From Burkholderiales bacterium (GTDB taxonomy: Bacteria; Pseudomonadota; Gammaproteobacteria; Burkholderiales; Burkholderiaceae_E), in contig CP070753.1 of NCBI GenBank assembly GCA_020348765.1, forward strand, positions 1,745,741 through 1,765,211: a stretch of 19,471 nt of DNA. The letters are read 5' to 3'. Made by a program: the position numbers and the translations under genes. Positions 1,441 to 19,471 of this stretch are shown here, piece by piece. The notes below the pieces were generated by a model, which worked only from the letters and a program-made list of their open reading frames with translations, was not told the DNA's origin and searched no databases. Position 1 is the first letter of the stretch; each line of letters starts with the position of its first letter.

Positions 1441-3234
1441 ATGCGCGCCATTGCGGGAAGAATGGGCATGACGAAGCGGGAATCGGTGGCGATCGCGATC
1501 GCCGGCAGCGGCGGGGCCGGCGTGATGACCCTGGGCACGATGCTGCTCGAGACGGCCGCGCGCGGCGGCTACTACGGCCTGTTCACCCGCCTGTCGGGGC
1601 CGCAGGTGCGCGGTGGCGAGGCTGCCGCGCTGGTGCGCTTGTCCACCCGGCCCACCGACTGCGCACCGGACGCGTTCGATGCGCTGGTGGCGATCGACTG
1701 GGCCAATGTCGATCGATTCGCCTCGGAAATTCCGCTCGAGCCGGACAGCCTGATCGTTGCCGATCCGAAGGGCGGTGAGGCGCCGGCAGCGATCGCCGCC
1801 TCTGGTGCGCACACGGTCACGGTCGAGCTGGCCCGGATCGCGAAGTCGGTGCCCGGGGGGCGTCCGAACATGGTCGTGCTCGGACTGCTGGGCGCGGCAG
1901 TGGGGCTCGGGCGCGATGCCCTGGCGGCCGCGGCCCGCGACGCACTGGCCGACAAGGGCGAAGCCGCGGTGCAGTCGAGCGTGCAGGCGATCGAGCAGGG
2001 ATACGATGCGGCGCAGCCGCTGCAGGACCGACTGGCCCTGGCGCCGGCCGTGCGCTCGGGCGAACACTGGCTGCTCTCTGGCAACGAGGCGGTCGGCCTC
2101 GGCGCGCTTCGCGGCGGCGTGCGTTTCGTGGCGGGTTACCCGATCACGCCGTCGACCGAGGTGCTCGAATGGGTGCTGCCGCGGATCATGCAGCTGGGCG
2201 GCGCGGCGGTTCAGGCAGAGGACGAGCTGGCCGCACTGGGCTGCGTGCTCGGGGCGTCGTACGGCGGTACGCCGGCGATGACGATCACCTCGGGTCCGGG
2301 ACTGTCGCTGATGGTCGAGACCCTGGGACTGGCGGTGGCCGCCGAGATCCCGGCGCTCGTGGTCGACGTCCAGCGTGGCGGGCCGTCGACCGGCATCCCG
2401 ACCAAGAGCGAGCAGGGCGACCTGAATCTCGCGGTCTACGGGGCGCACGGCGATGCGCCGCGGATCGTGATCGCGCCGACCTCGATCTCGGACTGCATCG
2501 AGTCCACGCAGTGGGCCGTCACGCTCGCGGAACGGTTGCAGACCCCGGTGATCGTGCTGTCCGATCAGTTCATGGGACAGGCCCAGTGCGTGATCGAGGC
2601 GCCTGAGCCTCTGGAGACGACCGGTGAGCGGGACAGCGGGCAGCGCGGTGGACCGGCAGGCGCGAAGGCGGCCGAACCCGAAGGCGGAGCCGCGCCCGCG
2701 GCCTACAAGCGCTATCGACTGACCGAGGACGGTGTGTCTCCGATGGCCGTGCCAGGCACGCCCGGTGCCGCGTGGATCGCCGAGGGCCTGACGCACGCCG
2801 AGTCGGGCACACCGTCTTCGAGCGCGCCGGACCACATCGCCCAGATGGACAAGCGGCTTCACAAGCTCGGCAGCTACGAGTACGGAAGCCGTTGGGCGGA
2901 CATCGAGGGCGAGGGCGATCGGGTCGTGATCACCTGGGGCTCGAGCACCGGCCCGGTACGCGAGGCGGTCGCGCGCCTGGCGGCCGAGGGGATGCCGCTG
3001 CGCCTGATCGCCCCGCGGCTGATCGCGCCGATCGATGCGCAGCGCTATGCGGCGGCACTGAACGGCGCCAGGCGGATCCTGGTGATCGAGCAGAACCACA
3101 GCGGGCAGCTGTATCGGTATCTGCATGCACACCTCGAGACCGATGCGCGGCTCGAGGCGCTGCACCGCCCCGGTCCGCTACCGTTTCGGTCTCGTGAAAT
3201 CCATTCGGAGCTCAGGCAATGGATGCAGTCATAG
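1441..3234 (+). CDS. korA: 2-oxoacid:ferredoxin oxidoreductase, fused gamma/alpha subunit (KorA type)
   Basis: This is the large subunit of a two-subunit 2-oxoacid (probably 2-oxoglutarate) ferredoxin oxidoreductase, which makes acyl-CoA, CO2 and reduced ferredoxin. The N-terminal gamma domain (about residues 15-195) begins with a glycine-rich GSGGAG turn and contains 'RLSGPQVRGGE'. The alpha domain follows, with the hallmark GYPITPST at residues 232-239, an acidic EDE at 260-262 and GPSTGIPT. A low-complexity linker (about 395-425) precedes the C-terminal domain. The roughly 600-residue length fits the fused form. The longest start (1441) has GAGG eight bases upstream. The ATG at 1468 with GGGAAG seven bases upstream gives MTKRESV and is equally plausible. 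It overlaps korB by 16 bases. Substrate preference cannot be read from sequence alone. Confidence 0.93.
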   Translation: MRAIAGRMGMTKRESVAIAIAGSGGAGVMTLGTMLLETAARGGYYGLFTRLSGPQVRGGEAAALVRLSTRPTDCAPDAFDALVAIDWANVDRFASEIPLEPDSLIVADPKGGEAPAAIAASGAHTVTVELARIAKSVPGGRPNMVVLGLLGAAVGLGRDALAAAARDALADKGEAAVQSSVQAIEQGYDAAQPLQDRLALAPAVRSGEHWLLSGNEAVGLGALRGGVRFVAGYPITPSTEVLEWVLPRIMQLGGAAVQAEDELAALGCVLGASYGGTPAMTITSGPGLSLMVETLGLAVAAEIPALVVDVQRGGPSTGIPTKSEQGDLNLAVYGAHGDAPRIVIAPTSISDCIESTQWAVTLAERLQTPVIVLSDQFMGQAQCVIEAPEPLETTGERDSGQRGGPAGAKAAEPEGGAAPAAYKRYRLTEDGVSPMAVPGTPGAAWIAEGLTHAESGTPSSSAPDHIAQMDKRLHKLGSYEYGSRWADIEGEGDRVVITWGSSTGPVREAVARLAAEGMPLRLIAPRLIAPIDAQRYAAALNGARRILVIEQNHSGQLYRYLHAHLETDARLEALHRPGPLPFRSREIHSELRQWMQS

Positions 3235-4058
3235 AAGAGCAGCCCGTGGAGCTGGATGCCACGGCCTTCAAATCCGAAGTCAAGCCGATCTGGTGTCCCG
3301 GCTGCGGGGACTTCGGTGTGCTGTCGGCACTGACCCGCGCGCTGTCGGCGCTGGCGCGGCCGCCGCACGAGATCGCAGTGGTCTCGGGCATCGGCTGCTC
3401 GTCACGGCTTCCCGCGTACACGACCGCTTTCGGCATCCACAGTCTGCACGGCCGGGCGCTGCCGCTGGCCACCGGCCTGAAGCTGGCGCGGCCCGACCTC
3501 GAGGTGATCGTCGTCGGTGGCGACGGCGACGGATATTCGATCGGCGGCAATCATTTCCTGCATGCCTGTCGCCGCAACGTCGACATGCTCTACGTGGTCA
3601 TGGACAACCGGGTCTACGGCATGACCAAGGGTCAGCCTTCGCCGACCACCGAGCCGGGCTGGACCAGCGCGCTGTCGCCGCAGGGAACCGACGTCGCGCC
3701 GCTCAGTCCGCTGGCGATCGCCATCTCGGCGGGCGCGGGCTTCGTCGCGCGCGGATTCAGCGGCGATCCCAACGGCCTTGCGAAGCTGATGGTCGAGGGC
3801 ATCCAGTGGGCCGGTTTCGCGCTGATCGAAGTGATGTCGCCGTGCGTGACCTTCCGGCCCGAGCAGCGGCGATGGAAGGACGCGATCCATGTCGGCCCCG
3901 AGAAGCCGTACCCCGATCCGGCGTCCGCGGCAGCGGCACTGCTGGCCGATGACGGCTTCGGTGTGGGGGTCTACTATCGAGGGCAACGGCCGATGCCGCC
4001 GGAGCGCTCGTTGCCGGTGCGCACGCTGGCTCAGATCGAGCAGGAGTTCAGGCTATGA
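3219..4058 (+). CDS. korB: 2-oxoacid:ferredoxin oxidoreductase beta subunit (KorB type)
   Basis: This 279-residue subunit carries the thiamine diphosphate and an iron-sulfur cluster of the KorAB enzyme. Visible signatures are WCPGCG at residues 25-30, GIGCSS at 58-63 and the ThDP/Mg motif GDGDGYSIGGNH at 101-112 with its partner Asn at 130 (MDNRVYGMTKGQ). The length matches two-subunit KorB proteins, and no separate delta (ferredoxin-domain) subunit is encoded here. The start lies inside the 3' end of korA and the stop overlaps the next gene by ATGA, so all three genes are translationally coupled. A 2Fe-2S ferredoxin is encoded about 1.7 kb downstream on the other strand. Whether it is the electron acceptor is a guess. 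Confidence 0.95.
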   Translation: MDAVIEEQPVELDATAFKSEVKPIWCPGCGDFGVLSALTRALSALARPPHEIAVVSGIGCSSRLPAYTTAFGIHSLHGRALPLATGLKLARPDLEVIVVGGDGDGYSIGGNHFLHACRRNVDMLYVVMDNRVYGMTKGQPSPTTEPGWTSALSPQGTDVAPLSPLAIAISAGAGFVARGFSGDPNGLAKLMVEGIQWAGFALIEVMSPCVTFRPEQRRWKDAIHVGPEKPYPDPASAAAALLADDGFGVGVYYRGQRPMPPERSLPVRTLAQIEQEFRL

Positions 4059-4579
4059 CCCAGACCGATGCGCCCGCCGATGCGATCGCGATGTTCTATG
4101 CGCACGCGATCGCGCTGGAGAACGAGGCGGCCGAGCGCTACCGCGAGCTGGCCGACCAGATGGAAGCGCATCACAACGAAGGCGCGAAGCGCCTGTTCCG
4201 CTGGCTCGCCGGCCTGGAGGCCGAGCATGCCAGCGAGTTGCAGCGCAAGGCCGAGGGCATGACGCTGCCGCGGCTCAAGCCGTGGGAATACCGCTGGGTC
4301 GACGAGGAGGCGCCCGAATCGGCCTCGTTCGACACGGTGCACTACCTGATGACGGCGCGGCATGCGCTCGAGGTGGCGTTGACCAACGAGCGCCGGGCGC
4401 GCGAGTTCTTCGAGCGCTATGCCGAGTCGGCCGAGCATCCCGAGGTCAAGCGGTTGGCGACCGAGATGGCGATGGACGAGGCCGAGCACGAGCGCTACGT
4501 GCGCCGGGCGCTGGACCGGGTCGACGAGACCGACGCGCACTGGGACCTGGATCTGGACCCGCCGCAGACCGCAGAGTAA
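4055..4579 (+). CDS. Rubrerythrin-like ferritin-family diiron protein
   Basis: This is a 174-residue four-helix-bundle protein. Two ExxH motifs at E55-H58 (EAEH) and E142-H145 (EAEH), with additional helix glutamates at E22/E24 and E106/E112, reproduce the diiron ligand pattern of rubrerythrin (E..ExxH..E..ExxH). There is no C-terminal rubredoxin domain. In characterised relatives such proteins scavenge peroxide or handle iron. Coupling by ATGA to korB suggests that it protects the oxygen-sensitive, radical-forming KorAB enzyme from peroxide. That role is inference; the diiron fold is well supported. The acidic tail after residue 157 is unlikely to be structured. Confidence 0.88.
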   Translation: MTQTDAPADAIAMFYAHAIALENEAAERYRELADQMEAHHNEGAKRLFRWLAGLEAEHASELQRKAEGMTLPRLKPWEYRWVDEEAPESASFDTVHYLMTARHALEVALTNERRAREFFERYAESAEHPEVKRLATEMAMDEAEHERYVRRALDRVDETDAHWDLDLDPPQTAE

Positions 4580-7632: not shown

Positions 7633-8889
7633 TCAGCGTTGCGCTTCGGCGGCGGCCCGATCCGGCAGCGGGTGAAAGGCTACGTCGATGTAGGCGACGA
7701 TCGCCTCGATCTCGCTTTCGCTGAGGACATGGCCCCAGGCCGACATCGAGGTGCCTGGGATGCCGTCGCGGATCCGCTGCGCCAGGGCCGCCCGGCTCGT
7801 GTGGCGCATGAACTCGGGGTCGGTCAGGTCGCGCGGATGCGGCTCGAGAAAGCGGCCGATCCAGTTGCGGGCGGTGCCGTCGGCCGCGTGGCAGAACGCG
7901 CAGTTGCGCAGGTACAGGGCTTGACCGTGATTGACGACCGGGTCCTCGGTCGCGAGCGCGACCGGCACGTCATGGCGTGCATAGAAGCCCGATGCCGCAC
8001 CGTCCGGTGCCTGCGGCGAGGCCGCGTCCAGCCCGGCACGCTCGGCGAGCGCCACCTCGAGAGGCACGCTGCGGCCGTGGTACGAGATCCGCTTCGGTCC
8101 GGGCGGCGTGCCGTCGGCCCGCCGCACGCGGTCATGGCAGCTGACGCAGTCGTGACCATCGGGCGGATAGGAGACGGCACGGGCCTCGAACAGCAGGTCG
8201 TCTTCGGTCGCACGTGGCTCGTGGCAGGTGATGCAGGCGGACACGAACAGGCGACGGCCGGCGGCCTGCGATGCATCGAGCTGCTCGACCGGGAGATCGA
8301 GCGCGATCTCGCCGCGCACGAACGGGAATGCGGCCGCATGGCGCTGGTGGTTCGGCCAGCCGTTGGCTGCCGTGTGATAGGTCGTGTTGCGCTCGCCCCG
8401 GCGCACGAACTCGGACAGCACGAACGCGGCGACGGCAGCCATTTCGCGCTCGTCCAGGATGCCGGCGAACGAGGCCATCGCGGTGCCCGGGCGCCCGCCG
8501 CGCAGCGCCTCGACGATCGTGCCCCGCGCCATGCCGGCGGCCACCGGTGCCGTGAAGTCGCGCGGCGCCGGCGACAGGTAGGACGCGGCTACGGTCCGCG
8601 CGTCGCCCGAGTAGCCGTGGCAGAAATAGCAGCGGAAGTTGTAGACCGCGCGGCCGAGCGCGATCGCTGCGCTTTCGGTGCCCTCACGGGCGGGCGCCGG
8701 ATCCAGGGTGTTCGACGCACGCGCCGGACCGAGCGGCCCGAGTTCCGGGGCGGCCTGCGGTCCGGGCCTCGCGGTAAGCCCGGGCAGTGCGAGCGCGGCC
8801 AGCGCCAGTGCCAGCGGCCCGGCGAGCGCCAACGAACGCAGCAGCCGTCGTGGCACCGATCGCACGCTCCGGTCCCTGCGCGCGAGCAT
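7633..8889 (-). CDS. Exported tetraheme c-type cytochrome with two class I cytochrome c domains
   Basis: This is a 418-residue protein with an Arg-rich, hydrophobic N-terminal signal or anchor (about residues 11-40). Four heme-binding motifs are visible: CYFCH (87-91), CITCH (219-223), CVSCH (248-252) and CAFCH (330-334). The first and last lie in cbb3-type class I cytochrome c folds with Met ligand candidates in 'GTAMASF' (M138) and 'GTSMSAW' (M382). The middle two are in a less familiar segment of about 150 residues that contains several free histidines. The ATG shares one base with the stop of the upstream diheme cytochrome gene, so the two are translationally coupled. A periplasmic electron-transfer role is likely; partners are unknown. 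Confidence 0.9.
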   Translation of the reverse strand: MLARRDRSVRSVPRRLLRSLALAGPLALALAALALPGLTARPGPQAAPELGPLGPARASNTLDPAPAREGTESAAIALGRAVYNFRCYFCHGYSGDARTVAASYLSPAPRDFTAPVAAGMARGTIVEALRGGRPGTAMASFAGILDEREMAAVAAFVLSEFVRRGERNTTYHTAANGWPNHQRHAAAFPFVRGEIALDLPVEQLDASQAAGRRLFVSACITCHEPRATEDDLLFEARAVSYPPDGHDCVSCHDRVRRADGTPPGPKRISYHGRSVPLEVALAERAGLDAASPQAPDGAASGFYARHDVPVALATEDPVVNHGQALYLRNCAFCHAADGTARNWIGRFLEPHPRDLTDPEFMRHTSRAALAQRIRDGIPGTSMSAWGHVLSESEIEAIVAYIDVAFHPLPDRAAAEAQR

Positions 8890-9737
8890 CAGCGTGCGTC
8901 CGCGCGCCCGATCGATTCGCCGGGGCCGCGAATGAAGGCCTGGAACACGTACTCGGCGACATCGGCGATCTGTTGCGGTGTCAGCACCTTGTCCCAGGCC
9001 GGCATCTCGCTGCCGTTGCGCCCGGCCGAGACGGCGGCGAACAGCGCGGGCCGGTTGTAGGTCGCCCGCGACGCGTCGGTCAGGAACCCGCGCGGCTTCG
9101 GGTTGATGAAGTACGCACGCGGACCCTTGCCATCGCCGGTCACGCCGTGGCAGGTGGCACAGTTCGCGTCGTAGAACGTCTTGCCCTTGGCCGCGTCACC
9201 GACCAGCGGGCCGGGAAAGCCCAGGCTCATGTCCGCGATGACCGGCGCCGGCGCGCGGTCCGACGCGCGGCCGCCGTGCGCCCGGGTTCCGGACACCCCC
9301 GGGATGCTCGGGGCTGCAGCCTTCGGTGGGCCATTCGGCCGCACGAACGCGGCCATCACGTAGTCGGCGAGTGCCGCGATCTCGCGCCCGTTCAGCTGAG
9401 TGCGCCAGCCGACCATCGCGGTGCCCGGCTTGCCGTGGGTGACCATCGCGATGATGCGCTCGCGGCTCATCTCGACCCGGGCCCGGGCGCTGGTGAAATC
9501 GTACGGCGGTGGCACCAGGCTGTTCGAGGCGCGGCTGCGGCCGTCTCCGCGGTCGCCGTGGCACACCGAACAGTAGTTGTGATAGAGCAGGTCGGCCCGC
9601 AGGCCGGTGCTGCTCGGAGCTTCCGCGGCGGCCGCCGCGTCGCGTGCTACCACGGAGCCCCAGCCCAGGATCGCCAGCGCGACGGCCACCGTGCCGGTCG
9701 CGATCCGAATGCGCGTTCTGTCGCCAAGCATCGTCAT
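8889..9737 (-). CDS. Exported diheme class I cytochrome c
   Basis: This is a 282-residue protein with an N-terminal signal sequence (hydrophobic residues about 13-30), then two cbb3-type cytochrome c domains. Domain 1 has CSVCH (56-60) and Met in GTAMVGW (M108). Domain 2 has CATCH (193-197) and Met in GSEMPAW (M245). A Pro/Ala/Gly-rich linker separates them. I chose the ATG at 9737 because it starts directly before the signal peptide; the open frame extends much further upstream but is Arg/Ser-rich and runs over the divergent promoters. A second ATG two codons in (9731) is also possible. It is the first gene of a two-cytochrome operon with its own sigma-54 promoter 36 bases upstream of the start. 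Confidence 0.9.
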   Translation of the reverse strand: MTMLGDRTRIRIATGTVAVALAILGWGSVVARDAAAAAEAPSSTGLRADLLYHNYCSVCHGDRGDGRSRASNSLVPPPYDFTSARARVEMSRERIIAMVTHGKPGTAMVGWRTQLNGREIAALADYVMAAFVRPNGPPKAAAPSIPGVSGTRAHGGRASDRAPAPVIADMSLGFPGPLVGDAAKGKTFYDANCATCHGVTGDGKGPRAYFINPKPRGFLTDASRATYNRPALFAAVSAGRNGSEMPAWDKVLTPQQIADVAEYVFQAFIRGPGESIGRADAR

Positions 9738-9783
9738 GTCGCCGCGCGCGCCGATGCGTGCGGCCTCTCCCGGGTTCGGGAAA

Positions 9784-9799
9784 AGCAACTTCTTTGCCA
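9784..9799 (-). promoter_or_regulatory. Sigma-54 (RpoN) promoter for the diheme/tetraheme cytochrome operon
   Basis: Read on the minus strand the sequence is TGGCAAAGAAGTTGCT. It has the invariant GG and GC exactly 12 bases apart, and the -24 TGGCA and -12 TTGCT elements agree with consensus. Transcription would start near 9773 and give a leader of about 36 bases before the ATG at 9737. It is back to back with a second sigma-54 site on the other strand. Confidence 0.75.
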
Positions 9800-9819
9800 G
9801 CAACGCGAACCGTCGCCGG

Positions 9820-9835
9820 TGGCACGAGGTTTGCT
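9820..9835 (+). promoter_or_regulatory. Sigma-54 (RpoN) promoter for the small peptide/NHL operon
   Basis: TGGCACGAGGTTTGCT is a full match to the consensus TGGCACG-N4-TTGCW, with correct spacing. The predicted transcription start is near 9846, about 67 bases before the GTG at 9913. Only 20 bases separate this element from the divergent sigma-54 element on the minus strand, so a single enhancer-bound activator could serve both. Confidence 0.82.
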
Positions 9836-9912
9836 GGACGAAAGCCGTACCCCGCCGGCGCCCGCGGATGTCGCGGTCCGGGCGGGTCGAATCCCACCGA
9901 AAGGAGACCGCA

Positions 9913-10050
9913 GTGAACCCATCGACCGCCTCCGGGCACCTGGCCTGGCTCGTGCCGGTTGTCATCACCGTCAGCGCCTCGCTGGTGGCGCCTGCGGCGT
10001 TCGCTGCCGATGGCGCCGCGGTCGAGTACGTGCTGCAACAACTCAGGTAG
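9913..10050 (+). CDS. Very small secreted peptide of unknown function
   Basis: This is a 45-residue frame starting at GTG, with a textbook ribosome-binding site (AAAGGAGA) seven bases upstream. Residues 1-31 form a classical Sec signal peptide: a polar start, a hydrophobic core (VPVVITVSASLVAPAA) and AFA-AD as the cleavage site. The mature product would be only about 14 residues, ending EYVLQQLR. It lies immediately downstream of a perfect sigma-54 promoter and 25 bases before the NHL lipoprotein gene, so it is probably the first gene of that operon. It could be a processed peptide, a leader controlling translation of the NHL gene, or the remnant of a longer secreted protein. I do not recognise a family. 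The good start signals and well-formed signal peptide argue that it is real. Confidence 0.6.
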   Translation: MNPSTASGHLAWLVPVVITVSASLVAPAAFAADGAAVEYVLQQLR

Positions 10051-10075
10051 AGCGGCGCGCGCGCCGGGGGACACG

Positions 10076-11227
10076 ATGGCCTCGTCAACCAAGCTCGTCG
10101 CCGGAACGCCGAACCGGCGCTCGGCGCTCAGACTGCTGCTCGGAGGGCCGGCGGCAGCCGCGCTGCTGGCCGCATGCGCCGAGGTGCCGGTCCGGGCGCC
10201 GGTCAAGGTCGAACTGCCCGTGTTTCCGCCGCCGCCGGAGCAGCCGCGGTTCTACTTCGAACGCGCGATCTACAGCGATGCGGACGTGGTGCCCGAGGCC
10301 GAGGCCTCGACCTTTCGCCGCGTCCTGACCGGCGAGTCGCGGCGCGGCCAGGGACTGGGCAAGCCCTACGGCGTGGCGGTCTGGCGCGGGCGCGTGTTCG
10401 TGTCGGACACCGTGATGCGCGCGGTGCGCGTGTTCGACGCCCCGGGCGGGCGCGTGTACGCGATCGGAGACGAGGACGGAGCGGGCGGCCTGCAGAAGCC
10501 GATCGGGCTCGACGTCGATGCGGCCGGCAACCTGTACGTGGCCGACATCTCGATGGGCGCGGTGATGATCTACGACCCGGACGGCAAGTTCCTGCGCCGG
10601 GTCGGCGGCAAGGACTCGTTCCAGCGCCTGACCAGCGTGACCGTCGACCCGGCGGGTGAGCGGGTCTACGGGGTGGACATCGGCGGCGTCGGCAGCGACT
10701 CGCACAAGGTGCGCGTGTTCGACGCGGCCAGCGGCGAGCACCTGATGGACATCGGCTCGCGCGGCCCGGGCCCTGGGCAGTTCAACCTGCCGCGCGACCT
10801 GGCGATCGGCGTCGAGGGGCGCCTGTACGTCGTCGACGGCGGCAACTTCCGGGTCGTGATGTTCGATCGCGACGGCGGCTACCTGGCCACCTTCGGATCG
10901 GTCGGGCGCCAGCTCGGCCAGTTCGCCCGACCGAAGGAAATCGCGATCGACCGCCATGGCAACGTGTACGTGGTCGATTCGGCGTTCGGCAATTTCCAGA
11001 TCTTCGATCCTGACGGGCAGCTGCTGATGTTCGTCGGCTCGCGCTCGGAGCGCGACGGCCCGGCCAAGTACATGCTGCCCTCGGGCATCGCGGTCGACGA
11101 GGACGGCCGCGTGTACGTGGTCGACCAGTGGTTCCGCAAGATCGACGTGTTCCGGCCGGCCGAACTGTCGCCGCACCAGGGCTACCTGGCGCGCCGGCCC
11201 CCGGCGGCTTCGGCGGCGCAGCGCTGA
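10076..11227 (+). CDS. NHL-repeat beta-propeller lipoprotein
   Basis: This is a 383-residue protein. The N-terminus has a twin-arginine-like NRRSALRLL followed by a hydrophobic stretch and the lipobox LLAAC (acylated Cys34), so it is a periplasmic or surface lipoprotein, possibly Tat-exported. From about residue 95 it contains six propeller blades of the NHL type, each with the pattern P..(I/V)AV...G.(V/L)YV.D....V.(V/I)FD. Clear examples are 'GNLYVADISMGAVMIYDPDG', 'GRLYVVDGGNFRVVMFDRDG' and 'GNVYVVDSAFGNFQIFDPDG'. GGGGGA lies five bases before the ATG. From memory, NHL-repeat proteins are often encoded next to filament-forming multiheme cytochromes in Geobacter, and here the next gene is such a candidate. 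It may be an assembly scaffold or secretion partner; that role is inferred. Confidence 0.92.
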   Translation: MASSTKLVAGTPNRRSALRLLLGGPAAAALLAACAEVPVRAPVKVELPVFPPPPEQPRFYFERAIYSDADVVPEAEASTFRRVLTGESRRGQGLGKPYGVAVWRGRVFVSDTVMRAVRVFDAPGGRVYAIGDEDGAGGLQKPIGLDVDAAGNLYVADISMGAVMIYDPDGKFLRRVGGKDSFQRLTSVTVDPAGERVYGVDIGGVGSDSHKVRVFDAASGEHLMDIGSRGPGPGQFNLPRDLAIGVEGRLYVVDGGNFRVVMFDRDGGYLATFGSVGRQLGQFARPKEIAIDRHGNVYVVDSAFGNFQIFDPDGQLLMFVGSRSERDGPAKYMLPSGIAVDEDGRVYVVDQWFRKIDVFRPAELSPHQGYLARRPPAASAAQR

Positions 11228-11490: not shown

Positions 11491-12426
11491 ATGAAGCGCA
11501 ACGTGCAAGGGGCATTCGGCTGGGCCTGGCTGGCCACGGCGGTCGGATGCGCGCTGTTCGCGTTCGTCGCCCTGGGTCCGTCGACGGCCCAGGCGCAGGG
11601 GATCGCGAGCACCAAGCACAACCTCGGCAGCACCGGCACCGGCGAGAACAAGAGCAGCAGCACCGACGAAGTCTGCGTGTTCTGCCACACGCCACACGGT
11701 GCGGACACGACCGACCCGCAGTCGAACCCGCCGCTCTGGAACAAGCGACTCGCCACCGGGGCCACCTACCAGACCTACTCGACGCTGCAGACCTCGTCGC
11801 TGGACGGCAATGAACTGAGCGTCGGCTCGGTGTCCGTAGCCTGCCTGTCCTGCCATGACGGCACGCAGGCGATGGACAACATCATCAATGCCCCGGGCTC
11901 GGGCGGCTATGACGCAACCGGCGGCGGCGAGTTCGGATTGAGCTATGCATGGGCCGGTGCCCGGGTCACCGCGGAGGGCAAGCTGCAGGATCCGGTCGGC
12001 GGCGTCAATGTCGCGCTGATCGGCCAGGACCTGAAGAACGACCATCCGATCGGAATCGAGTACTGCGGCGGCGGCATCGACGGCACCGGTGCCGGTGCGA
12101 CCGGCACCGACGCGAGCGGCACGTGCACGGATCCCGACTTCCAGCAGCCGAAGATGGCACTGATCAACAGCGTCCCGTACTTCTGGGTCGACACCGGCGC
12201 AGCGGCCGGCGACAACGTCCGGCACCGGACCGACATGATTCTCTACACGCGCGACTTCTCGGGCGTGGGCGGCGCGGCCAACACGCCGTCGGTCGAGTGC
12301 GGCAGCTGCCACGACCCGCACGTCGCCGAGGGAGACGTGGGCCCCAACAGCGTCGCAGCTGGCGCGACCTTCCTGCGCATCTCGAATACCGGCAGTGCCG
12401 TGTGCCTGGCATGCCACATCAAGTAG
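11491..12426 (+). CDS. OmcE-like tetraheme paired-CXXCH cytochrome, candidate extracellular filament subunit
   Basis: This is a 311-residue exported multiheme cytochrome. The Sec signal ends near AQA-QG (residue about 36). Four heme motifs form two paired-CXXCH modules: CVFCHTPH (62-69) with CLSCH (118-122), and CGSCHDPH (270-277) with CLACH (305-309), the last three residues before the C-terminus. Histidines outside the motifs are H43 (KHN), H69, H185 (DHP), H245 and H277; four of them can give bis-His ligation of all hemes. The KHN/CVFCHTPHG/PLWN pattern resembles OmcE of Geobacter and archaeal tetraheme filament proteins as I remember them. Two additional cysteines (C192, C212) could form a disulfide in the insertion. 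AGGGGGA precedes the ATG. It has its own sigma-54 promoter and terminator, as expected for an abundant structural product. An ordinary soluble tetraheme carrier remains possible. Confidence 0.85.
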   Translation: MKRNVQGAFGWAWLATAVGCALFAFVALGPSTAQAQGIASTKHNLGSTGTGENKSSSTDEVCVFCHTPHGADTTDPQSNPPLWNKRLATGATYQTYSTLQTSSLDGNELSVGSVSVACLSCHDGTQAMDNIINAPGSGGYDATGGGEFGLSYAWAGARVTAEGKLQDPVGGVNVALIGQDLKNDHPIGIEYCGGGIDGTGAGATGTDASGTCTDPDFQQPKMALINSVPYFWVDTGAAAGDNVRHRTDMILYTRDFSGVGGAANTPSVECGSCHDPHVAEGDVGPNSVAAGATFLRISNTGSAVCLACHIK

Positions 12427-12593: not shown

Positions 12594-13661
12594 GTGCAAC
12601 CGAAATCAGGAATGGGCCGTCTGGCCGCGCTCGCGCTGAGCGCGTTGGCAAGCGTGTGTATCCACGGCACGGCATCGGCGACGAATGCCACGGATGCCGA
12701 AGCGAGAGCGCGCGAACTGATCGACCGCGGCGAATCGGTGTTCGCCGTGGTCGACGAGCACGTGCTGAGCAGCGCGGACTATCACCGCGCATTTGCGGTT
12801 GCGGCACGCGAACGCTTCTACCACTCGAAGCCGCCCGAGGGCGAGTTGCGCGCGTTTCGCCGCGGCGTCGGCGAGATGCTGATCGGGCGCGTGCGGGCCG
12901 TCGACGAAGCCAGGCGCCGCGGCCTGCAGCCGGAGTCCGATCCGATCGAGGCCGCATTGCGCGCCTTCGACGAGCGCAACCGCGACCGCCCGGACTGGGC
13001 CGATCGGCGCGAAGCGCTACTGACCGCCTGGCGCGCGCAACTCGAGAACCGCAGCCTGCACCAGCAGTTCGAGGCCGCGATCCGGGACGTGCCACAGGCC
13101 TCGGAAGACCAGGCCCGTGCCTACTACGATCGCCGCCCGGAGCTGTTCACCGAGCCCGAGAAGGTGCGGCTGTCGCTGATCCTGCTCCGGGTCGATCCGA
13201 GCTCGCCGGCCGCCGCGTGGGACGCGGCGCTCGAAGAGGGGCGCGCGCTGCGCGATCGGCTGGTGCAGGGCGAGGATTTCGCTGCGCTGGCGCGTGAGCA
13301 TTCGCAGGACGCAGACAGCGCCGCGCGCGGCGGTGACATGGGCTATCTGCACCGGGGCATGGTCGGCGGCCCGCTGCAGCAGAGCGTGGACGCGCTTTCG
13401 GCGGGCCAGATCCAGGGGCCGATGCGTTTGCTCGAAGGGGTTGCGATCGTGCGGCTCGAGGACCGCAAGCCGCCCCTTCAGCGCGGCTTCGAAGAGGTGC
13501 GCGATCGTGCGGCCGAGCTGTGGCAGCGGGCTGAGTCGGAGCGGCGCTGGGACGAGACGCTCGCGAGCCTGCGACGCGCGGCGCAGGTCTGGGTCAACGA
13601 GTCGCTCTATGACGGGTCCATGCTCGCCGCTGGCGATTCGAAGGACGGGCGTGGGCGTTGA
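12594..13661 (+). CDS. Exported parvulin-type peptidyl-prolyl isomerase (SurA/PpiD-like)
   Basis: This 355-residue protein has a Sec signal (hydrophobic residues about 9-27, cleavage near SATA), a helical N-terminal chaperone region (about 30-165) and a parvulin rotamase domain (about 180-290) with 'RLSLILLRV', 'EDFAALAREHSQD', 'GGDMGYLHRGM' and 'ALSAGQIQGPM'. A helical tail follows. It would help fold outer-membrane or secreted proteins in the periplasm. The start is a GTG with AAGGAG seven bases upstream; an ATG at residue 7 is an alternative. It leads a run of at least seven same-strand genes and sits directly before the barrel gene, so the barrel and the exported cytochromes are its likely clients. 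From memory, prolyl isomerases also flank filament cytochrome genes in Geobacter. Confidence 0.9.
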   Translation: MQPKSGMGRLAALALSALASVCIHGTASATNATDAEARARELIDRGESVFAVVDEHVLSSADYHRAFAVAARERFYHSKPPEGELRAFRRGVGEMLIGRVRAVDEARRRGLQPESDPIEAALRAFDERNRDRPDWADRREALLTAWRAQLENRSLHQQFEAAIRDVPQASEDQARAYYDRRPELFTEPEKVRLSLILLRVDPSSPAAAWDAALEEGRALRDRLVQGEDFAALAREHSQDADSAARGGDMGYLHRGMVGGPLQQSVDALSAGQIQGPMRLLEGVAIVRLEDRKPPLQRGFEEVRDRAAELWQRAESERRWDETLASLRRAAQVWVNESLYDGSMLAAGDSKDGRGR

Positions 13662-13687: not shown

Positions 13688-15700
13688 GTGCGCGGCCCGC
13701 GGCTCGGTCAGGCCTGTGTGGCTCGCGCGCTCGCGCTGCTCGCGCTGGGGACGGCCGTGCCTGCACCCGGGGGCTCGCGAGCCGCGCTCGTCGGCGGCGA
13801 CGATGCCCCGCTGCTGCTGGCGGCAGCGACCGCACCCGGTGTCACCATCGCCGGCTCCGAGCCGGCACCGCCGGCACCCGCGGTGGCGACCGACGAGGAG
13901 CAGGGCGGACTGCTGCGCGGCATTCGCTGGGAGTTGGCGCCGATCCGGTACTGGGGCCAGATCGCGATCGACTATCGCACCAGCGGCAGCGACGGTGGCG
14001 GCCAGGGTTCGCAGCAGACGGTTTCGGTGTCGATCAACGGTGCCAGCTACATCTGGCAACCGTGGTTTGCGCAGCTGCGCGGCGGGCTCGGCCTGGTGCT
14101 GGCCCGCAGCGAAGCGACCGACGGGGGCGGCACGCGCAACCTCGGCCTGACCGGAAGCCTGGGGCTGTCGCTGCTGCCGATCAGCCGCTTCCCGTCCAAC
14201 TTCTACCTGGATGTAAGCGACAGTCGTGCCGACGGCGAGTTCACCGGCGTCGACTACCGGACCGTCCGCTTCGGCTTCGACCAGTCCTACACGCCGCCGG
14301 ACAGCAGCGCGCGCTACCGGCTGGCATTCGACCAGAGCACGATCCGGGTCGACGATGCCGCGACCGGTGCCCGCGGCGCGTCTTCGATGGCCTCGTCGGA
14401 CACCGTGCGCACGCTGCGTGCCACGTACAGCCGCAGCTTCGAGCGCCAGAGCATCGATGCGGAAGCCAGCATCTCGACCAACGGCCGCGACGACCCCCTG
14501 GGTCGGGCGCGCTCGCAGTCGGACCTGGTGACGGTACGCCACAGCTACCAGCCGGCCGACGCGCTGTCGATCGAGAGCCTGGCCAGCCTGACCCGGTTCG
14601 ACAACGACCTGCCAACCCGGTCCGGTCGCCAGAATCTGGGGTTGCGCACGCTGCAGCTTTCGAGCTTCGCAACCTGGCGGCCGCTGCCGGGCGATGCCTG
14701 GCATTCGGCCGATCATCCGCTGTACCTGACCGCGAACGTGCGCGCGATGGTGCTCTCCAGCGACAACCTCGGCACGCAGTCCGAGACCCGGTCGCTGTTC
14801 GCCGGCATCGGGCTCAACTACCAGCTGCTGCGCACCGTGCGGCTTATCGCGAACACCTCGCTGGCGCGGTTCTCGGCGCACAGCGGTCCGTCGACCAGCT
14901 CGTTGACCCAGTCGTTCGGATTGAGCTACGCCGGCGATCCGATCGCGCTCGGGCGGTTCGTGTACACGCATTCGGCGTCGGTCAGCGCTTCGTTGGCGAA
15001 AACCACAGGCGCCGATGCCGGAAGCCGGCACGGCACCAATGCGAGCCTCAACCACGGTCTGTCCCGGACCTGGGCGCTCGGGCCGGCCAGCTCGTTCGCG
15101 CTTTCGCTCGGGCAGGGGCTGTCGCTCGGACACGGCACGCAGCGATCGCTGGGCGGCGGGCTGACGCACTCGGTGGCCGCATCCTGGACCCGGTCGACCG
15201 GCGGTGCGAGCCGCTCGCTGGCCCGGGTCTCGGCGACCGACTCGAGGGCGCTCGGTGCGCAGGGCGTCGATTACCAGATGGTCAATGTCCAGGTGTCGCA
15301 GCAGCAGTCGCTGTCGCGCGTGTCCTACTGGAGCGGCAACCTGACCTGGCAGGGCACGCGCAGGCGGGACCCCGAGGAAGACCCGGAGCTGCTCGGCTTC
15401 GCGCCGCGCGGATGGACCACTTCGTACGGGGCCGATCTGAGCTACGTGCACCAGCGTGCCTTCGGCGTTCAGGGCCTCCGCTACACGGCGCTGCTCAATG
15501 CCAACAGCTTCGACGTCGACCGGCGCGACCAGGGCTTCGTCGACGCGCCGCTGTCGAACACGACGCTGGCCTTCGACCAGCGCCTGGAATACCGGATCGG
15601 TCGCCTGGACATCCGGCTCTCGGCGCGCTGGGCGCGGGTCGACGGCAAGGACAGCTGGGTGGTGTTCCTGCGCATCGTGCGCGCCTTCGGTCGGTTCTGA
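13688..15700 (+). CDS. Large outer-membrane beta-barrel protein, candidate conduit or secretion porin
   Basis: This is a 670-residue protein with a signal-like N-terminus (residues about 10-32), a short Ala/Pro-rich segment, then about 580 residues of alternating polar/hydrophobic strands rich in Ser, Thr, Tyr and Arg, typical of a transmembrane barrel. It ends with an aromatic C-terminal Phe (FLRIVRAFGRF), the usual BAM recognition signal. The size is similar to MtrB/PioB porins (about 700 residues), but I do not see their family signatures and there is no CXXC motif. Strand count cannot be judged reliably; 20 or more seems possible. The start is a GTG with a weak ribosome-binding site 26 bases after the isomerase gene. 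It could hold a cytochrome conduit or export filament subunits. A long overlapping frame (13294-15750) lacks a signal and barrel pattern. Confidence 0.82.
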   Translation: MRGPRLGQACVARALALLALGTAVPAPGGSRAALVGGDDAPLLLAAATAPGVTIAGSEPAPPAPAVATDEEQGGLLRGIRWELAPIRYWGQIAIDYRTSGSDGGGQGSQQTVSVSINGASYIWQPWFAQLRGGLGLVLARSEATDGGGTRNLGLTGSLGLSLLPISRFPSNFYLDVSDSRADGEFTGVDYRTVRFGFDQSYTPPDSSARYRLAFDQSTIRVDDAATGARGASSMASSDTVRTLRATYSRSFERQSIDAEASISTNGRDDPLGRARSQSDLVTVRHSYQPADALSIESLASLTRFDNDLPTRSGRQNLGLRTLQLSSFATWRPLPGDAWHSADHPLYLTANVRAMVLSSDNLGTQSETRSLFAGIGLNYQLLRTVRLIANTSLARFSAHSGPSTSSLTQSFGLSYAGDPIALGRFVYTHSASVSASLAKTTGADAGSRHGTNASLNHGLSRTWALGPASSFALSLGQGLSLGHGTQRSLGGGLTHSVAASWTRSTGGASRSLARVSATDSRALGAQGVDYQMVNVQVSQQQSLSRVSYWSGNLTWQGTRRRDPEEDPELLGFAPRGWTTSYGADLSYVHQRAFGVQGLRYTALLNANSFDVDRRDQGFVDAPLSNTTLAFDQRLEYRIGRLDIRLSARWARVDGKDSWVVFLRIVRAFGRF

Positions 15701-15778: not shown

Positions 15779-15789
15779 GGGAGGTGGCA

Positions 15790-16260
15790 ATGCTTGGTTC
15801 GACTCTGGCGCGCTGGCTGGCCGCGGCCCTCTCGGCCCTGGCCGTGCTGGCCCTGGCCTCGGCCGCGCGCACCGCGAGCGCCGAATACGGCGACGTCGTG
15901 ATCAACAACTATTCGGATGCCGCCGGCATGCGCCCCGTGGTGTTTCCGCACTGGTTCCACCGCATCCGCTTCCGCTGCAAGGTTTGCCATGCGGACCTGG
16001 GGTTCGAGTTCAAGGCCGGCGGCAACGAGATCGACATGGTCAAGATCATCGACGGCCAGTTTTGCGGCGCCTGCCACAACGGCGAGCTCGCCTGGGCGGT
16101 CGACAACTGCAACCTGTGCCATGCCGGCCTGCCGGGCACGCCGACCCAGGTGCACGAGAGCACGCTGCAGAAGCTGGTCGGCCCGCCGCCGGCGTCCGGC
16201 GCTGGCGCGAATCGGACCGTGTCCGCTACACAGCCGGCGCAATCAGGGGGAGGGCAATGA
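15790..16260 (+). CDS. Exported triheme c7-type cytochrome
   Basis: This is a 156-residue protein with a Sec signal (cleavage near ASA-EY, residue about 31) and a compact triheme domain: CKVCH (63-67), CGACH (92-96) and CNLCH (107-111). The motif VVFPHWFH (H54, H57) before the first heme is the typical c7/c3 start, and those histidines plus H122 are the only free ones, enough for bis-His ligation of three hemes. 'M..I..G.FCGACHNG..AW' also fits the c7 pattern. The ATG at 15790 has GGGAGG six bases upstream; a GTG two codons earlier lies inside that site. The stop overlaps the next start (ATGA). The C-terminal 35 residues are low complexity. It is likely a periplasmic carrier to the outer-membrane complex. 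Confidence 0.9.
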   Translation: MLGSTLARWLAAALSALAVLALASAARTASAEYGDVVINNYSDAAGMRPVVFPHWFHRIRFRCKVCHADLGFEFKAGGNEIDMVKIIDGQFCGACHNGELAWAVDNCNLCHAGLPGTPTQVHESTLQKLVGPPPASGAGANRTVSATQPAQSGGGQ

Positions 16261-17300
16261 ACAGGATGCGGAGCAGGGCGCGTTTCGCCGCCCGTGCCGC
16301 GCTCGTGGCCGCGCTCGCCGTGCTCGGCTGGCTGGCGGCGACACCGGCACGAACGCAGACCGGTACCCCTGGCGGCCAGCAGGTCTACGAATCGGCCTGC
16401 GTCGGCTGTCACGCGACCGGCGTGGCCGGCGCGCCGCGCTTCGGGGATGCCGCACAGTGGGCCGTGCGCCTGGCGGCCGGGCACGAGCAGGTGTACCGGA
16501 ACGCGATCGCAGGCACCGAGCGCGGCATGCCGCCCAAGGGCGGGCGCACCGACCTGTCGGACGCGGCCATCCGCAGCGCCGTCGACTACATGCTGGCGGC
16601 GGCCGGCGCACCGGCGCGAGAGCCGGCTGCGGCCTCGAACGCTGCACCTGCGCCGGCGGCGGCCCCGGTGCCGGCAGCGGCGACTGCGGCAGGGACGGCA
16701 AGCGCTCCGTCGGCGCCGAGCGCGAGCTCGGGCCCGACTGCGCCGGCGGCGGGCGCCGGTGCCGTCGCCGGTGGCGCGGTCGCAGATGTCAACGCGTTCA
16801 ACCGCCTGCTCAAGCCACCGGGCCGGCACAATCTGCCGGCGGCCGAGTCCGGGATTCACGACCCGGCCAACGACGGAACGCACGCGCTGCAGCCGCCGGC
16901 GCTTGCGTTCGCGATGCTGCCCAAGAGCCTGGCTGGCAACCGGGTCGACTGGGTGGGCTCGCTCGAGGACGGGAAGATCGACCCGCGCTGGGACCGTGCC
17001 GACCCGGCCGCCGCGCCGGTCGTGCTCGACCTGAACATCGTGCGTGAGGTCAAGGGGTCGATGCCCGACGTGGTGTATCCGCACAAGGAGCACACCCAGT
17101 GGCTCGACTGCGCCAACTGCCATCCCGCGATCTTCGTGCCGCAGAAGGGTGCCAACCAGATCTCGATGGCGGCGATCCTGCTCGGACAGAAGTGCGGTGT
17201 GTGCCACGGCAAGGTCGCGTTCCCGGTGTCCGAGTGTCGGCTGTGCCATTCGAGGAAGAAGGATGCGATGGCAGCCACGGCCGGCACCGGCACGCGATAG
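16257..17300 (+). CDS. Fusion of a class I (c5-like) monoheme cytochrome to a c7-type triheme cytochrome
   Basis: This 347-residue protein has a signal peptide (residues about 10-33). A cytochrome c5-like domain follows, with CVGCH (48-52) and Met in GMPPKGG (M91). A low-complexity Ala/Pro linker runs from about 117 to 175. The C-terminal c7-type module carries CANCH (285-289), CGVCH (313-317) and CRLCH (327-331), with H276 and H279 in VVYPHKEH as distal ligands. Between linker and heme domain is a conserved segment (LLKPPGRHNLP...GIHDPAND...DWVGSLEDGKIDPR) that recurs in the truncated gene at 19092. The start overlaps the previous stop and has GGGGGAGGG upstream. It joins a Met-ligated, higher-potential heme to three bis-His, lower-potential hemes, so it could connect two redox levels in the periplasm. 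Confidence 0.88.
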   Translation: MNRMRSRARFAARAALVAALAVLGWLAATPARTQTGTPGGQQVYESACVGCHATGVAGAPRFGDAAQWAVRLAAGHEQVYRNAIAGTERGMPPKGGRTDLSDAAIRSAVDYMLAAAGAPAREPAAASNAAPAPAAAPVPAAATAAGTASAPSAPSASSGPTAPAAGAGAVAGGAVADVNAFNRLLKPPGRHNLPAAESGIHDPANDGTHALQPPALAFAMLPKSLAGNRVDWVGSLEDGKIDPRWDRADPAAAPVVLDLNIVREVKGSMPDVVYPHKEHTQWLDCANCHPAIFVPQKGANQISMAAILLGQKCGVCHGKVAFPVSECRLCHSRKKDAMAATAGTGTR

Positions 17301-17322: not shown

Positions 17323-18204
17323 ATGCGGATCGAGTCGGTGAGGGCCTTCGGCGCGGTGCTGCTGGCGCTGGCTGTCGCGGCCGCGTTCGAGGCGGCGGCG
17401 CAGGATGACGCGCGCCGCACGATGATCATGCGCAAGCTCGAATTCGCCGGGCGCGTGCTCAATGACGCCGGCGCGATCTCGCGCATCGAAGCGGCGCCCG
17501 ATGCACGCGCGCGCAAACTGCTCGAGCGCGGCGCGGTGCTGTACGCCCGAGCGCGGGCGGAACTCGATGCCGGGCGTCTGGACGCGGCCGACCGCGACCT
17601 CAGCGAAGCGCTTGCGGCGCTCGGCCAGGCGCGCCGCATCGCGCGAGACACCGAAGCGCAGCGCGCGCACGAGCGCGCACGCTATGCGCAACTGCTCTCG
17701 AGCACCGAATCGCTGCTCGAGTCGTATCGGCGGCACCTGCTCGGACGCGGCGCACTGGCCGACGCTTCGGATTTCGCGCTGGCCGCGCGGCTGATGCAGG
17801 AGGCTCGCGATCGAGCGGACGCGGACACCGGGCTGATCGAGGCGCTGCGCACGCTCGAGCAGGCCGAGCAGCATCTGTTGCGCGGCATCGGCCATGCGCT
17901 GGGCGCGCGGACCCTGGCGTACGCGCCGCGCTTCGCGACCACGCGCGAGGAATTCGAGTTCGAACTGAGCCGCTACCGAGCGCTGACCGAGCTCGTGCCG
18001 CTGGCGATCGAGCAGCTTCGGCCCCCGGAGCAGGCGCGACGCCGGATGCAGGCAGGGCTCGAGCGCGCCGAAAGTGCCCGCCGGGCCGCGCTGGCCCAGG
18101 CCGAACTGGGCCTGCACCGGGCGGCGCTGGCGGCGGTGCGCGAGGCCATCGACGGCGTGCAGCAGGCGCTGAGCGCCGGCGGCCTCGTCACTCCCACGCG
18201 ATAG
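17323..18204 (+). CDS. Periplasmic all-helical protein, paralogue of the next gene
   Basis: This is a 293-residue protein with a signal peptide (residues about 7-27, cleavage near AAA-QD) and then continuous Ala/Arg/Glu/Leu-rich helices suggesting helical hairpins or TPR-like coiled coils. I do not recognise a family. It shares the segment FATTREEFEFELSRY (204-218) and the overall layout with the next gene (FATKREEYEYEIDRN), so the two are paralogues. There are no cysteines, so it binds no c-type heme. GAGGA precedes the ATG, 22 bases after the c5-c7 fusion gene. Placement between multiheme cytochromes suggests a scaffold or docking role; that is inference. Confidence 0.8.
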   Translation: MRIESVRAFGAVLLALAVAAAFEAAAQDDARRTMIMRKLEFAGRVLNDAGAISRIEAAPDARARKLLERGAVLYARARAELDAGRLDAADRDLSEALAALGQARRIARDTEAQRAHERARYAQLLSSTESLLESYRRHLLGRGALADASDFALAARLMQEARDRADADTGLIEALRTLEQAEQHLLRGIGHALGARTLAYAPRFATTREEFEFELSRYRALTELVPLAIEQLRPPEQARRRMQAGLERAESARRAALAQAELGLHRAALAAVREAIDGVQQALSAGGLVTPTR

Positions 18205-18212
18205 GAGGGAAC

Positions 18213-19088
18213 GTGAGTGCGTTGATGCGACAGGCGGTCGCGCTGCTGCTGGCATCGCTGCTGGTTGGCAACGCCGCCGCGGCCGAAGCACGGGATCCGG
18301 CGCAGCTCGAGCGGCGGCTGCAGTCGGTGGCCACGCTGATCGAGCGCTCGTCGGTGGCGCGCCAGATCGAGGCCAGCGGCGATCCGCTCGCGGCCGAGGC
18401 GCGAGCAAGGGCGCGCGTGCTGCACCGTGAGGCCACGGCTGCGGCAGCTGCGGGCGATGCGCAGCGCGCGTCACGATTGCTGGACGACGCGACCCGGCAG
18501 ATGGTTCAGGCCGCGCGCAGCGCTGCGCCCGAGCAGGTGACCGGAGACAAGGCCAGAAGCGACTTCGAAGCGCGGCTGCGCAGCGTCGAGTCGCTGCTCG
18601 ATGCACAACGCCGCATCGCCCAGGAAAAGCCGCAGTTCGCGGCCGATGCCGAGCAGAGCATCCGACGCGCCCGCCAGCACGTGTCCGAGGCGAAGTCGCT
18701 GGCGGCGGCGAAAGACCTCGCCGGTGCGCGCGCGACGATCGATCAGGCCTACCTGACCACCAAGGTCGCGCTCGAGTCGATGCGCCGCGGCGACACGCTG
18801 GTGCGGTCGCTGCATTTCGCGACCAAGCGCGAGGAATACGAATACGAGATCGACCGCAATGACACGCACCGGATGCTGGCGCAGGTGCTGCTGAAGGACA
18901 AGCGCGCGTCCAACCCGATGCTCGAGAGGTCGGTGCAGCCGTATCTGGAGCAGGCGGCACGGTTGCGCGCGCAGGCCGAGCAGCGCGCGGGCGACGGCGA
19001 TCACGACGGTGCGATCGCACTGCTCGAGGATTCCACGCGCCAGTTCGTGCGCGCGATCCGCAGTTCCGGCGTGTACATCCCGGGATGA
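18213..19088 (+). CDS. Periplasmic all-helical protein, paralogue of the previous gene
   Basis: This is a 291-residue protein starting at GTG with a strong AGGAGGGA ribosome-binding site, eight bases after the previous stop. It has a signal peptide (residues about 5-24, AAA-AEA). The body appears to have two similar halves: 'LERRLQSVATLIERS' followed by 'AAGDAQRASRLLDDATRQMVQAARS', and 'FEARLRSVESLLDAQ' followed by 'AAKDLAGARATIDQAYLTT'. The third segment, 'AGDGDHDGAIALLEDSTRQFVRAIRSSGVYIPG', repeats the second helix type again. The shared FATKREEYEYEID (202-214) links it to its neighbour. There are no cysteines or heme motifs. Function is unknown; a helical partner of the c7 cytochromes is plausible. 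Confidence 0.8.
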   Translation: MSALMRQAVALLLASLLVGNAAAAEARDPAQLERRLQSVATLIERSSVARQIEASGDPLAAEARARARVLHREATAAAAAGDAQRASRLLDDATRQMVQAARSAAPEQVTGDKARSDFEARLRSVESLLDAQRRIAQEKPQFAADAEQSIRRARQHVSEAKSLAAAKDLAGARATIDQAYLTTKVALESMRRGDTLVRSLHFATKREEYEYEIDRNDTHRMLAQVLLKDKRASNPMLERSVQPYLEQAARLRAQAEQRAGDGDHDGAIALLEDSTRQFVRAIRSSGVYIPG

Positions 19089-19091
19089 ACG

Positions 19092-19471
19092 GTGCGCAAA
19101 GCATGTCGCAACGGGCTGCGGGGCGCCACGCTGGTGTGCCTGGCGCTGGCATGCGTGGCCACGCTCGGCATCGGTGCGCAATGGAAGCGGCTCGCCGAGG
19201 ACGGGGTGCACGATCCGCAGAGCCCGGCCATCGGCCAGTTGCAGGAGCCGGCCGAGGCGCTGCGCGTGCTGCCGCCCGACTCGGCCGGCAACATGGTGCA
19301 CTGGGTGCGCGCCATCGAGCGCGGGGCGATCGCGCCGCGCACGACGCTGCAGCAGACCACGCCGGTGCGCATCCGCGAGGACGCGATCATCATCAGCAAG
19401 TACGGGTCGATGCCGGCGGTGGAATTCCCGCACCGCCAGCACACGCTGTGGCTCGACTGCAGCAACTGCCA
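19092..19471 (+). CDS. c7-type multiheme cytochrome, truncated by the window edge
   Basis: A GTG four bases after the previous stop opens a frame that runs off the window. The first 126 residues have a signal or membrane anchor (about 11-28) and then 'GVHDPQSPAIGQLQEPAEALRVLPPDSAGN', closely matching the middle of the c5-c7 fusion gene. Next come 'VEFPHRQHTLWLDC' (H114, H117) and the start of the first heme motif (CSNC, residues 123-126), where the window ends. It lacks the N-terminal c5 domain of its paralogue. By analogy two further hemes should follow. Its ribosome-binding site is weak, so translational coupling to the gene before it is likely. Confidence 0.85.
   Translation, partial: MRKACRNGLRGATLVCLALACVATLGIGAQWKRLAEDGVHDPQSPAIGQLQEPAEALRVLPPDSAGNMVHWVRAIERGAIAPRTTLQQTTPVRIREDAIIISKYGSMPAVEFPHRQHTLWLDCSNC

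Follow-up and report, generated by a model that had tools for sequence, protein, structure and literature searches.

An OmcE-family tetraheme cytochrome of a Uet operon as a candidate filament subunit, and a linked undecaheme protein with an OmcE-like head

The window (the whole stretch of DNA analysed, 19,471 nucleotides) comprises a complete contig and is followed by a 100-N gap. Since it ends in this gap inside a triheme-type cytochrome gene, it represents one contig of a joined assembly, in which contigs are linked by 100-N gaps and which has been rated 57% complete. The window carries uetA (11491..12426, + strand), encoding an OmcE-like tetraheme cytochrome of 311 aa with a signal peptide, which corresponds in kind and place to UetA as described in the accessible text of PMC10734462. 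Downstream, on the same strand, lie uetB (12594..13661), encoding a PpiC-type peptidyl-prolyl isomerase (PF00639, E 6.8e-16), and uetC (13688..15700), whose name follows from its position in the cluster. The 670-aa product of the latter, a putative outer-membrane beta-barrel, had no Pfam, NCBIfam or PDB match. They are followed by uetD (15784..16260, +), encoding a triheme c7-type cytochrome (TIGR04257, nanowire_3heme, 62.3 bits with a cut-off of 40), and uetE (16257..17300, +), in which a monoheme cytochrome c domain (PF13442) is fused to a TIGR04257 triheme domain (61 bits); these are the two genes of the operon that score over the cut-off of this NCBIfam model. A third triheme-type cytochrome gene, at the place of uetG (19092..19469, +), is represented by its start only, being cut by the contig end ahead of the complete first heme motif, and its product is 44% identical over 93 residues to that of the second triheme gene (blastp, E 2e-22).

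Two adjacent genes for conserved proteins of no known family, neither with a Pfam match, sit between the triheme genes. The first (17323..18204, +) lies near the place of uetF and has matches in 33 of the 80 genome loci described below, and the second (18213..19088, +) in 56; their products match the same two frames in genome G004. Upstream of uetA is a gene for an NHL-repeat beta-propeller protein (10076..11227, +; PF01436, E 4e-21), with a lipobox-like N-terminus read by eye. Two divergently oriented genes encode cytochromes c with cbb3-type domains, containing two (8889..10088, − strand) and four (7633..8889, −) CXXCH motifs; each has a match in 44 of the 80 loci, and both are outside the Uet gene list in print. 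The region 1441-4579 of the window contains two genes with 2-oxoacid:ferredoxin oxidoreductase domains (POR and TPP), followed by a gene for a rubrerythrin-like protein.

Inspection of the uetA product bore out the basic features of the original prediction, which had placed a tetraheme protein with a Sec signal at these coordinates. The reading frame (311 aa and a stop codon) was checked for position, strand and phase, and its four CXXCH motifs start at residues 62, 118, 270 and 305; none of 20,000 shuffled versions of the protein had four such motifs, and the most found in any of them was one. Reading by eye suggests a signal peptide with cleavage between PSTAQAQ and G; H43 would then be residue 7-9 of the mature protein, depending on the exact cut, and hence stand near its N-terminus, as had been proposed. 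Since the protein ends with CLACHIK, the last heme motif is, as also foreseen, C-terminal. The GC and GC3 contents of uetA (0.68 and 0.89) are similar to those of the neighbouring genes.

UetA contains nine histidines (43, 66, 69, 122, 185, 245, 274, 277 and 309), eight of which would serve four bis-His hemes. All eight, that is, all except H245, are invariant in an alignment of 65 sequences (the UetA query and 64 homologues, chosen out of 119 others listed; at least 4824 homologues were found among 8000 scored candidates). A wider set was provided by 80 genome loci, less three whose frames have 3 or 5 CXXCH motifs (L075, L090 and L092). Seven of the eight ligand-type residues are histidine in 77 of these 77 loci and the eighth, H69, in 76 (Q in one). 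H245 is histidine in none of the 77, so it is a spare residue, as had been supposed, and was ruled out as a heme ligand. There are thus exactly four conserved free histidines (H43, H69, H185 and H277, the same four as named in the prediction) for four hemes. The cysteines C192 and C212 are near-invariant in the 65-sequence alignment and invariant among close homologues, but a pair of this kind was ruled out as a family-wide trait, because the two positions are Cys in only 27/77 and 26/77 of the wider loci.

A single-sequence search of PDB chains (phmmer) identified only two significant relatives of UetA: OmcE of Geobacter sulfurreducens (7tfs, E 8.5e-23) and 9yuq (E 8.9e-19), the latter being one PDB entry with 16 identical chains of 218 aa, named "Putative multiheme cytochrome c". 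The third row was 6r2q_A (E 7.4). With a profile built from the 65 sequences, 9yuq and OmcE were again found (E 5.2e-32 and 1.1e-31), followed by a cytochrome c2 at E 0.97. The homology extends over most of the OmcE chain (residues 9-164 and 170-232 of 232, with E 0.012 for the second stretch alone), and 80 of 215 aligned columns are identical in UetA and OmcE. The four CXXCH motifs are accompanied by free histidines at positions matching those of OmcE, which has five free histidines. It is therefore close to certain, judging from the sequences, that UetA belongs to the OmcE family. The original prediction had also pointed to archaeal tetraheme filaments. In this respect the two halves of the proposal separated: the HMM search recovered OmcE, with a partner for each of the eight histidines, whereas neither the archaeal filament proteins (8E5F, 8E5G) nor OmcS appeared among the PDB matches up to E = 10, with the single sequence or with the profile. 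Sequence homology of UetA to the archaeal filaments and to OmcS is consequently not supported, and the resemblance to the archaeal proteins is functional, with no sequence relation detected in these searches.

The Uet cluster has been described before and this gene is its uetA, so the names of the gene and of the operon are not new. According to the accessible text of PMC10734462 and PMC12575090, the cluster (uetABCDEFGHIJ) occurs in Candidatus Tenderia electrophaga and some Gallionella, and encodes a tetraheme cytochrome (UetA), an isomerase (UetB), a porin (UetC), triheme cytochromes (UetD, UetE and UetG), NHL proteins (UetH and UetI) and an undecaheme cytochrome (UetJ). For the Tenderiales Uet system, electron uptake from outside the cell is stated in the available part of PMC12575090. 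The available part of PMC5371394 places a tetratricopeptide-repeat gene among the triheme genes of Tenderia and lists this gene and three triheme genes among those most expressed at the cathode; from the order of the locus tags we infer that these correspond to UetF and UetDEG. In the window, uetA is followed by the isomerase, putative barrel and triheme genes, and the same genome encodes an undecaheme UetJ and an NHL protein, the 11-CXXCH gene adjoining an NHL-matching frame on another contig. These similarities support the assignment of the operon to the kind described for surface electron transfer. The operon of syntrophic sulfate reducers encoding 16- and 26-heme cytochromes (PMC5539420, in its accessible text) was also considered; a beta-propeller and an isomerase are common to both, but these heme numbers set it apart from Uet.

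The conservation of the gene order was examined in the best 80 of at least 527 UetA relatives, as loci in named genomes, with neighbours matched by tblastn. The isomerase was found in 72 of the 80 loci (always downstream of uetA), and the 670-residue protein, each triheme gene and the NHL protein in 69 each; for uetE, 68 of its 69 matches are downstream of uetA. In 67 loci uetA is succeeded on its own strand by the genes for the isomerase, the 670-residue protein and the first triheme cytochrome, arranged in that order, and in 66 the second triheme gene is located beyond or beside these three. The NHL match is more variable in position: 51 loci have it at most 2.5 kb upstream of uetA, 13 at a distance of over 7 kb on the downstream side, and five at other places. 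As a control, alaX, a gene of the window 4 kb from uetA and outside the operon, had a match in none of the 80 loci; alaX is a fair control, and korA, at the edge of the 10-kb flank, a poor one. In genome G004 a single stretch contains, in order, an NHL gene, uetA, uetB, uetC, uetD, uetE, two genes of unknown kind, two triheme frames, two further NHL genes and an 11-heme uetJ.

Eight loci lack the isomerase match. Three of them (L041, L071 and L085) end about 125 bases or less from uetA; the others are L043, L068, L070, L078 and L091. L043 and L068 are second uetA copies with no matches to operon genes nearby, and the other copies in these genomes (L032 and L033) are in the operon; the genomes are those of Polaromonas sp. 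RGN.1 and Ramlibacter alkalitolerans. Within the window's family a match was found in only 2 of 25 genomes, so the distribution of the cluster is patchy. Loci with uetA in isolates outside Geobacter include those of Dechloromonas hankyongensis (L036), Aromatoleum toluolicum (L024) and Piscinibacter defluvii (L014). In two Chromatiales genomes (L022 and L026), 8-heme and 18-heme cytochrome frames are located upstream of uetA.

The UetJ-like gene of the window's genome (G000), at L008:791-3427, encodes a protein with 11 CXXCH motifs that starts with an OmcE/UetA-like tetraheme head containing all eight histidines. This first part aligns to residues 38-311 of UetA (E 8e-29) and carries the motifs TRHNL, CVFCHTPH, CLSCHDG, NDHP, CASCHDPH and CVACH. 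When the whole protein was compared with PDB, OmcE was matched over residues 42-268 (E 5.3e-25). Frames with at least eight CXXCH motifs were found in 13 of the 80 loci, and 11 of them begin with an OmcE/UetA-like module; the remaining two (L022 and L026) are of the other, 8- and 18-heme, kinds. Together with those of G000, G004 and G034, these gave 14 UetJ heads. All eight ligand-type histidines are present in 14 of 14, with the reservation that the first is not independent evidence, because the heads were picked partly by a His-Asn/Asp-Leu/Phe motif before the first heme, which contains it. The three complete UetJ frames have 11 CXXCH motifs; the other 11 frames extend as far as the locus boundary, and 8 to 11 motifs are visible in them.

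In profile-profile comparisons the UetJ heads matched UetA over 227 columns (E 5e-54), and the tails over only 37 (E 1e-4). The eight histidines and eight heme cysteines coincide in the alignment of UetA, the UetJ heads, OmcE and 9yuq. A tree of 43 rows (27 of the 78 UetA rows were taken) separated the UetJ heads (support 100/100), OmcE with 9yuq (98/91, on long branches) and UetA (88/95); being unrooted, it is silent on which two groups are nearest. The notion that OmcE is nearer to UetA than to the UetJ heads was dropped, the root of the tree being a midpoint of the drawing only.

The co-occurrence of the two proteins was examined in 300 genomes of the same order, using one query for both and a match threshold of E ≤ 1e-15. 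Twelve genomes had a match. A full-length UetA (match reaching residue 311, E at most 8.8e-59) is encoded in ten, including the window's genome, and all ten also have a match inside a frame of at least 785 residues. These UetJ-type frames, defined here by match and length and not by heme number, lie on the same contig about 8 to 11 kb from uetA in seven genomes, far from it in one and on another contig in two. The distance in the window's genome is uninformative, as is gene order outside the window, because its assembly joins contigs by 100-N gaps. Among the other 290 genomes two have a long frame, G034 (903 residues) and G220 (619 residues). A Fisher test gave p 4.7e-17 for the co-occurrence, a value for which the thresholds were chosen with the table already in view and shared ancestry was left out of account. 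A 339-residue frame of G034 (L011:7719-8735), with five CXXCH motifs, matches UetA in two pieces, and this genome may be an eleventh UetA carrier.

Taken together, we consider it probable (roughly 0.65) that UetA is the OmcE-family cytochrome of the Uet operon, polymerising outside the cell as an OmcE-like filament, and that UetJ joins or ends the chain. The sequences themselves show the family membership of UetA, its complete complement of eight ligand-type histidines, the operon, and the N-terminal domain common to UetA and UetJ. According to this model, UetA would be secreted from the cell and its subunits would polymerise head to tail, the N-terminal H43 of one subunit supplying the second histidine of a bis-His heme in the next subunit to give a continuous heme chain like that of OmcE. 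UetB might aid folding, UetC could act as the outer-membrane channel, and the triheme proteins UetD, UetE and UetG would carry electrons in the periplasm. UetJ, with its OmcE-like head and seven-heme tail, would join or end the UetA chain, the head providing a compatible chain end and the tail a path, in either direction, between chain and barrel.

The individual steps differ in strength. Every free histidine common to OmcE and 9yuq is retained in UetA; a filament with such cross-subunit ligation is therefore the simplest reading, and formation of a filament by UetA is likely. The role of H43 as the cross-subunit ligand is suggested by its N-terminal place and by a parallel with OmcS. OmcE and OmcS both have one heme whose ligation involves a histidine of the adjacent subunit (PMC9473688, PMC12307469, in their accessible text), and for OmcE the available sections of these papers do not name the residue. 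That UetA keeps it is likely, not certain, since the fifth free histidine of OmcE (in VHND) has no partner in UetA. The 79 residues by which UetA exceeds OmcE could, moreover, alter the packing.

The strongest competing explanation, which we regard as rather unlikely, is that UetA acts as a monomer on the outer surface, where it would form a porin-cytochrome complex together with UetC and UetJ, work like an additional Mtr-type surface cytochrome and form no polymer. The accessible text of PMC10734462 presents Uet as a porin-multiheme complex, with UetA as an extracellular tetraheme cytochrome and not as a filament, and the linkage of the putative barrel, isomerase and undecaheme genes agrees with this explanation. 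Polymerisation does not follow from the module by itself, because the module also forms the head of UetJ, for which no polymerisation is known. However, the closest solved relative of UetA is a filament protein, the second has 16 identical chains in one entry, and the four free histidines are all common to OmcE and 9yuq. Improbable, in our estimation, is a one-to-one heterodimer in which matching domains of UetA and UetJ share ligands across their interface and form a short, fixed wire instead of a long filament: the same eight histidines in both proteins, the strong co-occurrence and the intact operon with both genes in G004 would suit it, but the extra uetA copies with no operon genes nearby (L043 and L068) fit a polymer subunit better. 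Still less credible is a soluble periplasmic tetraheme carrier, for which the signal peptide speaks as the sole export signal visible by eye, since UetA is homologous to a filament protein found outside the cell, PDB matches up to E = 10 otherwise comprised only 6r2q_A and the cytochrome c2, and the operon already provides triheme cytochromes.

Beyond the proposed extracellular UetA filament itself, the presence of all eight histidines in the UetJ head and the co-occurrence of the two proteins raise the possibility that UetJ anchors or caps the filament. A broader proposal, which we put forward tentatively and with clearly less confidence than the reading of UetA, is that Uet is a filament system of beta- and gammaproteobacteria and more than a porin-cytochrome conduit, with UetA as the nanowire and UetJ, whose head has the same N-terminal histidine, as an end-piece that splices it to the outer-membrane conduit by cross-subunit heme ligation. 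If correct, it would extend long-range wires to these bacteria, and UetJ would be an anchor or cap that the genome itself encodes for a cytochrome nanowire. To our knowledge, how cytochrome nanowires join the cell that charges them is an open question for Geobacter. In the operon described here, the gene for the candidate subunit of a filament is accompanied by genes for a putative barrel in the outer membrane and for triheme cytochromes, with a linked protein that has a filament-like head, and the presence of these genes in isolates outside Geobacter makes the junction between nanowire and cell testable by single-gene deletion. The physiological role of cytochrome filaments is disputed even for Geobacter, as stated in the accessible text of PMC11077965.

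A limited literature search, covering partial texts, did not find a link between Uet and OmcE, a filament reading of Uet or an OmcE-like head of UetJ; the latter two are apparently new here. Homologues of OmcS, OmcE and OmcZ have been found in bacteria and archaea by sequence searches (PMC12307469, in its available part), so OmcE homologues outside Geobacter are said to be in print already, and the likeness of UetA to OmcE may well be too. With uetA lying in a conserved bacterial gene cluster for proposed electron transfer at the cell surface, OmcE-type wires may occur in many other bacteria.

Among the known systems, OmcE resembles UetA in having four hemes, in the shared motifs, which occur in the same order (TKH, CVFCHTPH, CxSCHDG, NDHP, CGSCH..H and a C-terminal CLxCH.K), and in having a histidine aligned to each of those in UetA other than H245. 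OmcE has nine histidines, the ninth being that of VHND, and its filament has a rise of about 34 Å (PMC12954529). UetA is the longer protein, with much of its excess between H185 and C270, and the cysteine pair of its close homologues is absent from OmcE. The 9yuq protein is also shorter than UetA; its 204 printed residues contain exactly eight histidines, all at UetA positions. The present cluster differs from the published Uet clusters in that an NHL gene and a divergent pair of genes for cbb3-type cytochromes lie upstream of uetA, and in that uetJ is located on a different contig, the assembly being incomplete. The Uet clusters of Tenderiales and Gallionella nevertheless consist of the same kinds of genes, and a Candidatus Tenderia locus (L089) has uetA, isomerase, barrel and two triheme genes in the order found in the window.
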